NCBI GenBank assembly: GCA_027065045.1
Contig: JAMOOX010000041.1
Location: 1 to 64,000, forward strand
Reading direction: 5' to 3'
DNA length: 64,000 nucleotides
DNA from: Campylobacteraceae bacterium
Lineage (GTDB): Bacteria; Campylobacterota; Campylobacteria; Campylobacterales; Sulfurovaceae
Below are positions 20,554 to 21,570 of the stretch, piece by piece. The translations under genes and the position numbers were made by a program. The notes beneath the pieces were generated by a model, which saw nothing but the letters and a program-made list of their open reading frames with translations, ran no database searches and was not told where the DNA came from. Every line of letters begins with the position of its first letter. Positions within the stretch are counted from its first letter, which is position 1.

Positions 20554-20625
20554 TCTTAAATAGGATAAAATTAGTCTTAAATCAAGAAAAATATATTTAA
20601 TTTAGTAAATTTAACAATTTAATGG

Positions 20626-20631
20626 TATAAT
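20626..20631 (+). promoter_or_regulatory. Probable -10 box of the hemerythrin-like gene
   Basis: GGTATAATTT on the plus strand, 32 bp before the ATG at 20663; AAAAGGA is the ribosome site. Confidence 0.5.
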
Positions 20632-20662
20632 TTATATAATAAAACAGTAAAAAGGATATTTT

Positions 20663-21157
20663 ATGGGATTTATCAAAAACCTTTTAAATAAGTTTAAAAA
20701 AGATAGTGAAAGTGCAAAAGAGATTAAAGTTGAAACTACATATAACAAACAGCTTATAGAAAATTTCAAACATGACCATCAAGAGTTATTAAAGATATTT
20801 GGTGAGATTCAAGAGAGTTTCAAAAGTGATAATAATGCTCATAAAAAGGTAGTAAATCTATTAAATGATTTTAAAATTGCTTTAGAGATTCACTTGATGA
20901 TAGAGGATAATAAATTATATAGTTATCTTGGAGAAAAATATGGTTCAGATGATATACATAAAGCATTTGTAGAAGATATTCAAGCAGAGATGACAAATAT
21001 TGCAAAAGAGGTAATGTTTTTTATTAGAAAATATACAAATAGACAATCTTATGATAATAATATAGATAATTTTTTAAGTGACCTTGATAATATTGGTGAA
21101 GTATTAGTAAGAAGAATTAAAATGGAAGAGGAAAAACTATACGCTTTATATGTATAA
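20663..21157 (+). CDS. Hemerythrin-like helical domain protein
   Basis: The 164-residue protein is mostly helical. NFKHDHQELLKIFGEIQE, IHLMIEDNKLYSYLGE and a final RRIKMEEEKLYALYV resemble the HHE/hemerythrin metal-binding helices, with His and Glu at expected places, although one His is replaced. It may bind a di-iron centre for oxygen or NO sensing, which is uncertain. It is cytoplasmic (no signal). Its 3' end overlaps the predicted start of the cytochrome c gene by 19 bp. Confidence 0.75.
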   Translation: MGFIKNLLNKFKKDSESAKEIKVETTYNKQLIENFKHDHQELLKIFGEIQESFKSDNNAHKKVVNLLNDFKIALEIHLMIEDNKLYSYLGEKYGSDDIHKAFVEDIQAEMTNIAKEVMFFIRKYTNRQSYDNNIDNFLSDLDNIGEVLVRRIKMEEEKLYALYV

Positions 21158-21543
21158 TTAGTATATGGATATTAATATCTCCTCTTAATGCACATATTAC
21201 TGAAAAAGTTTTATATGATTTTGAGGCAAAATGTATGCTATGCCATAATACCTATAAGCGAAATAAGAAAGCTCCACCATTAGTGGCTATTAATCAAGTA
21301 TATTTGAGAATTTATGATAATAATTGGACAGTAGCACAAGAACAGATTAAATTCTTTTTAGAAAATCCAACAGAAGAAAATGTAGTTATGAAACCTGCAT
21401 TAAAGAAATTTGGATTGATGCCTAAATTAGTTTTTGATGCAAATAATACAAATGATTTTGCACAAGTGTTAGTTGAAACAGAATTTGAAATACCTGATTG
21501 GTTTAATGCTCATTATATAGAACATAATTTGAGTAAGAGATAG
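21139..21543 (+). CDS. Small exported c-type cytochrome-like protein, probable ATA start
   Basis: The CxxCH heme site is CMLCH (codons 21232-21246). The first standard start codon in frame, ATG 21235, would cut off the first heme Cys and any signal peptide. Reading upstream, the frame is open to 21121. From ATA at 21139 it gives a textbook signal peptide, RFICIISIWILISPLNA. AGAGG (21127-21131) lies exactly 7 nt before that ATA. ATT at 21157, overlapping the upstream TAA, is an alternative. No ATG, GTG or TTG exists in the open part. The protein would have about 134 residues with one heme. The partner is unknown; the hemerythrin-like gene just upstream suggests oxygen or redox chemistry. Confidence 0.7.
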   Translation: MRFICIISIWILISPLNAHITEKVLYDFEAKCMLCHNTYKRNKKAPPLVAINQVYLRIYDNNWTVAQEQIKFFLENPTEENVVMKPALKKFGLMPKLVFDANNTNDFAQVLVETEFEIPDWFNAHYIEHNLSKR

Positions 21544-21566
21544 AGTATCTTAAAAAAGATACTCTA
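21541..21566. terminator. Bidirectional terminator between cytochrome and rplT
   Basis: TAGAGTATCTT (21541-21551) and its exact complement (21556-21566) form an 11-bp stem with loop AAAA between convergent stop codons. Confidence 0.7.
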
Positions 21567-21570
21567 TAGA

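Follow-up and report, generated by a model that had tools for sequence, protein, structure and literature searches.

The window, the 64,000-nucleotide stretch of Campylobacteraceae DNA analysed here, belongs to a draft genome of 164 contigs (G000). Its forward strand carries a gene for a hemerythrin-domain protein whose end is overlapped by a gene for a cytochrome c-like protein, and the latter appears to begin at AUA. In what follows, G001 is a second genome of the same genus, a draft metagenome assembly, and the other G numbers are further genomes. The features of the locus are these:

20611-20640 (+): promoter-like site 5' of the hemerythrin gene, 11 of 12 positions matching; a consensus match only
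20663-21157 (+): preceding gene, hemerythrin-domain protein of 164 aa, ATG start, stop TAA at 21155-21157 (PF01814, E 2.3e-12)
21127-21131 (+): Shine-Dalgarno (SD)-like AGAGG, 7 nt before ATA, anti-SD duplex of -6.0 kcal/mol
21139-21141 (+): proposed AUA start codon, aligned to ATG or GTG of five orthologues and to ATA of G001
21139-21157 (+): stretch shared by the start of the cytochrome gene and the end of the hemerythrin gene, seen in the sequence, with ATAA at 21154-21157
21139-21543 (+): cytochrome c-like gene, 134 codons plus stop, from sequence and alignment
21139-21192 (+): signal peptide, probable cut after Ala18 and before His19, placed by the conserved Ala-His of the alignment
21180-21186 (+): TCCTCTT, complementary to AAGAGGA at 21126-21132; predicted pairing, a possible hairpin burying the SD
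21232-21246 (+): haem motif CMLCH, from sequence and alignment; its Met codon, 21235, is the first standard start codon
21418-21420 (+): Met94 within FGLMPKL, an invariant alignment column and likely distal haem ligand
21540-21567 (+): predicted terminator-like hairpin after the cytochrome gene

The cytochrome frame (21121-21543, +) opens after an in-frame stop, TAA 21118-21120. It reads AAT GGA AGA GGA AAA ACT up to ATA 21139, CGC TTT ATA TGT ATA up to ATT 21157, and then AGT ATA TGG ATA TTA ATA and, further on, GCA CAT. No in-frame ATG, GTG or TTG lies 5' of ATG 21235, and no standard start is available that would preserve the conserved N-terminus of the protein. The sequence thus bears out two claims of an earlier note, that the haem site and a signal peptide lie upstream of every standard start and that AGAGG stands exactly 7 nt before ATA 21139. 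The same note named ATA 21139 and ATT 21157 as the only candidate starts. Both are candidates, but they are not the only ones, as further in-frame ATA codons occur at 21148, 21154, 21163, 21169 and 21175. ATA 21154, which shares bases with the stop codon of the hemerythrin gene, is the only serious alternative to ATA 21139.

Read from 21139, the product has 134 residues and comprises the signal peptide, CMLCH, APPL, FGLMPKL and a C-terminal EFEIPDWF block. A signal peptide, one CxxCH and a distal Met ligand, recognised in sequence and alignment, are the marks of a class I-like monohaem cytochrome, and by these features the product is a secreted monohaem cytochrome c-like protein. Of the Pfam cytochrome c models, PF00034 and PF13442 are matched by members of the orthologue alignment (best 3.5e-6 and 3e-5, respectively); at a cut-off of 0.1, neither picks up the protein from the window. 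Its AlphaFold model is weak (mean pLDDT 63), and a fold search with it gave no meaningful PDB match. A second match of the hemerythrin-domain protein, to Rsd/AlgQ (PF04353, 1.3e-6), falls under the curated cut-off.

Placement of the start by comparison with orthologues

Six further genomes of the family have orthologues 50-64% identical to the cytochrome, and G011 has one that is more distant. The earlier note had proposed looking for ATG at this codon in orthologues, and the alignment places it there in four (G170, G175, G098 and G076), with GTG in a fifth (G103). In all five relatives this codon is followed by Lys or Arg, a hydrophobic stretch and Ala-His. The orthologues have 14-17 residues before Ala-His, and the window protein has 17 if counted from ATA 21139 and 12 from ATA 21154. 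ATA 21139 is therefore assigned as the start position, because the ATG or GTG of the orthologues, with matching signal-peptide length, aligns there.

The orthologue from the same genus (G001, contig JAMOOQ010000040.1 of a Campylobacteraceae metagenome assembly) is 61% identical, and there too no standard start precedes the Met of the CMICH motif. ATA, in AAATTAAAATAAAAAATCTT, stands at the corresponding codon and shares bases with the TAA that ends hisH. From codon counts of 162/2227 and 157/2316, the chance of ATA at one given column in both genomes is ~0.07 x 0.07 = 0.5%, and ATA stands at the start position in the two species despite near-saturated synonymous sites (dS 1.3). An assembly error, a doubt raised with the original observation, is unlikely given that ATA is kept in a second species. 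The gene thus probably does start at AUA 21139, as a weak start codon.

Other placements of a non-standard start are improbable. The likeliest would be ATA 21154, where ATAA overlaps the upstream stop in G000 as it does in G001, or ATT 21157, and reinitiation after termination needs no SD. Starts at these codons, however, would leave just 12 or 11 residues before Ala-His, against 14-17 in the orthologues, and would deprive the signal peptide of the positive charge of a basic N-region; the spacing of AGAGG is also best for 21139.

Somewhat more doubtful still is the view that the cytochrome is a young pseudogene without a start codon, or that ATA is an error in a 164-contig draft. Pseudogene and truncated copies do occur in other genomes, and the G000 protein has changed at about double the rate of its G001 counterpart (branch dN ~0.19 and ~0.10), a difference compatible with some relaxation. 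Against decay, the missing start is common to two species, and dN/dS is 0.225 between G000 and G001 and ~0.2 against other genera wherever dS could be computed, indicating purifying selection. CxxCH and Met94 are among the 30 invariant columns of the alignment. With the frame open, all haem residues retained and dN/dS at ~0.22, simple decay is therefore unlikely, and an error would have had to strike the same codon twice.

Broken or truncated cytochrome copies were seen at G103:C18:7251-7571 (L038), G076:C207 (L033) and G167:C43 (L034), with internal stops or with the C-terminal third only, behind an ATG. The G076 cytochrome copy is interrupted by an internal TAG.

Least probable of all, and rejected on the orthologue starts and the unrelated upstream genes, is a hemerythrin-membrane segment-cytochrome fusion with a normal start, made by -1 frameshifting near GAG GAA AAA CTA or hidden by a base missing from the A run before 21139. 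That run is a possible site of base loss, and in G000 as in G001 the cytochrome is read in the -1 frame relative to its upstream neighbour, but this relation is expected of any ATGA-type overlap, a classical slippery heptamer is absent, the Arg or Lys at the start position opens a signal peptide, and fusing a secreted cytochrome to the cytosolic enzyme HisH would be senseless.

Overlap with the preceding gene

Hemerythrin and cytochrome genes form an apparent two-gene transcript, judging from the promoter-like site and the terminator-like hairpin that bracket them. Counting from AUA 21139, the cytochrome gene overlaps its neighbour by 19 nt, and its start lies 16 nt ahead of that neighbour's stop codon. 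In G001 the overlap is ATAA, and three further genomes (G170, G103 and G098) have 4-nt start/stop overlaps of the ATGA or GTGA kind. These five genomes thus share a same-strand start at or before the upstream stop, an arrangement of the coupling type; G175 and G076 show no overlap with the upstream gene. As read from translations, and by profile for hemerythrin, the upstream genes appear to differ between genomes and to be unrelated: hemerythrin in G000, hisH in G001 and an AddA/UvrD-like helicase in G170. Translations elsewhere suggest another helicase-like ATPase (G103 and G098) and a ribBA-type gene (G076).

The start in G001 is nearly without an SD (-2.9 kcal/mol), so that coupling would there have to supply initiation unaided. 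The likeliest reading is that AUA serves as a genuine but weak start, coupled to the upstream gene that it overlaps. The two consequences foreseen when the start was first noticed, weak expression and a tie to the gene before it, would fit the 19-nt overlap, the ATAA of G001 and the three 4-nt overlaps. The usual initiator tRNA (CAU) would read AUA 21139 with a mismatch at the third base, and the codon would hold cytochrome output low, with initiation supplied by ribosomes completing the overlapping hemerythrin gene and aided by AGAGG. The passage of ribosomes through the end of the hemerythrin gene might also open the hairpin that could bury the cytochrome SD. Opening of this hairpin by upstream ribosomes is an idea, not a result; compared with shuffled sequences, the hairpin region has no extra stability (z 0.11). 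The ATAA of G001 is the G-to-A counterpart of the ATGA of orthologues: a single mutation converts the start from ATG to ATA and, at once, the stop from TGA to TAA. Such a change would offer a coupled gene a one-step path to an AUA start.

Start codons and initiation factors in the genus

Genes without a standard start were sought by homology between stop-to-stop frames in ~0.90 Mb of G000 and 1.14 Mb of G001, about half of each genome. The two directions of comparison gave 458 and 486 conserved frames, some antisense shadows included. A coding-potential scan for start-less genes had returned chiefly antisense shadows and missed the cytochrome, and homology was used in its place. Besides the cytochrome, two genes lack a standard start in both genomes, and three candidates are single cases, all of them outside the window:

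L143:4005-5027 (G000, +) and L195:2768-1734 (G001, -): histidine kinase, ATA start, standard start absent in both genomes
L161:18129-15487 (G000, -) and L081:1177-3837 (G001, +): large signal-peptide protein, AUH start
L205 (G000, -): response regulator, ATT 17907, weak SD-like sequence; single case
L134 (G001, -): response regulator, ATT 1900, AGGAG; single case
L133 (G001, +): DEAD helicase, ATT 5714, AAGGA; single case

The kinase ATA (4005 in L143, 2768 in L195) lies within the end of a response-regulator gene, and is forced upon the kinase frame by the Gly-Tyr-Lys codons of the regulator (TAT AAA). The large signal-peptide protein would start at ATT 18129 with GAAGGA in L161, and at ATT 1177 or ATC 1180 in L081; relatives 61-62% identical to it occur in G002-G004. 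For the three single cases, the first standard start would remove an acidic pocket or N-terminal motif. With these, G000 has four AUH-start genes and G001 five, or ~1% of the frames in the comparison, which suggests an enrichment in the genus; the lineage as a whole probably tolerates starts of this kind. They are few, since a scan of SD sequences in G000 gave no general enrichment of ATA (rate 0.056 vs a mean of 0.053). An excess of ATT in the same scan of G001 is partly ATT directly before ATG.

Two genes first taken as AUH cases, trpA (L169/L184) and acpS (L203), have a TTG start, and most further matches in both genomes proved to be either ORFs in antisense shadow or SD regions conserved ahead of an ATG. 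Two G000 genes, L146:8029-8574 (+) and L207:8684-9063 (-), are split by frameshifts or stops and have longer counterparts in G001; split genes of this kind form a broken-gene background for start surveys.

A changed initiator tRNA was considered and set aside, as the initiator tRNA genes found in the five genomes of the genus all carry the anticodon CAT. In the same five genomes (5/5; L075:1-136 and L076-L079), the C-domain of IF3 is longer by a single Arg or Lys, inserted behind the residue equivalent to E. coli L145 and adjoining R147. This insertion is absent, by match length, from the ~140 other family genomes listed, and from all 29 aligned relatives outside the genus (0/29). R147 has been implicated, along with other C-domain residues of IF3, in binding to the 30S subunit; a search of the available literature on IF3 R147 or R131 found nothing. 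The infC gene of the genus itself appears to start at TTG. The isolated IF3 C-domain can reject non-canonical starts (PMC4611024). It is conceivable, if rather doubtful, that the insertion relaxes start discrimination in the genus, making AUA, AUU and AUC ordinary weak starts in ~1% of genes, with N-termini misplaced or dropped in annotation. Insertion and AUH starts are correlated within one lineage, and this could be chance.

From these comparisons, the odd start seems to be a weak-start feature of the lineage and not a sequencing error. Gene finders restricted to ATG, GTG and TTG will either truncate the cytochrome within its haem motif or miss the gene altogether. Natural AUA starts kept between species have rarely been documented, and several AUH-start genes together with an IF3 insertion confined, within the family, to the genus provide a test case for natural drift of start-codon discrimination by IF3.

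Comparison with known systems

E. coli has two well-known cases of an AUU start, infC and pcnB, the first of which was checked here in sequence (ATT). The cytochrome gene resembles both in a start outside AUG, GUG and UUG and in the weak initiation expected of it. The likeness to infC ends at function: E. coli infC is autoregulated by IF3, whereas the gene here encodes a secreted cytochrome.

Bacteria are known to initiate at AUU, AUC and AUA (PMC4611024). In S. aureus, infC, ccpN and citZ start at AUA and cvfC1 at AUU, these starts have roughly 10-30% of AUG activity, and those of ccpN and cvfC1 are conserved between species (PMC13009471). The cytochrome gene shares with this set an AUH start and an expected reduction in output, and with ccpN and cvfC1 conservation between species. 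The S. aureus genes differ in having extended SD sequences and proof by ribosome profiling; the cytochrome start, predicted from sequence, has a moderate SD in G000, almost none in G001 and a gene overlap. In its position within the end of the upstream gene, it is like the starts of ATGA and GTGA translational coupling, and three orthologues have exactly these overlaps. Unlike them, the overlap in the genus carries AUA, as ATAA in G001 and within 19 nt in G000. The AUH start is thus already known in bacteria, and the gene overlap is the particular feature of the cytochrome case.
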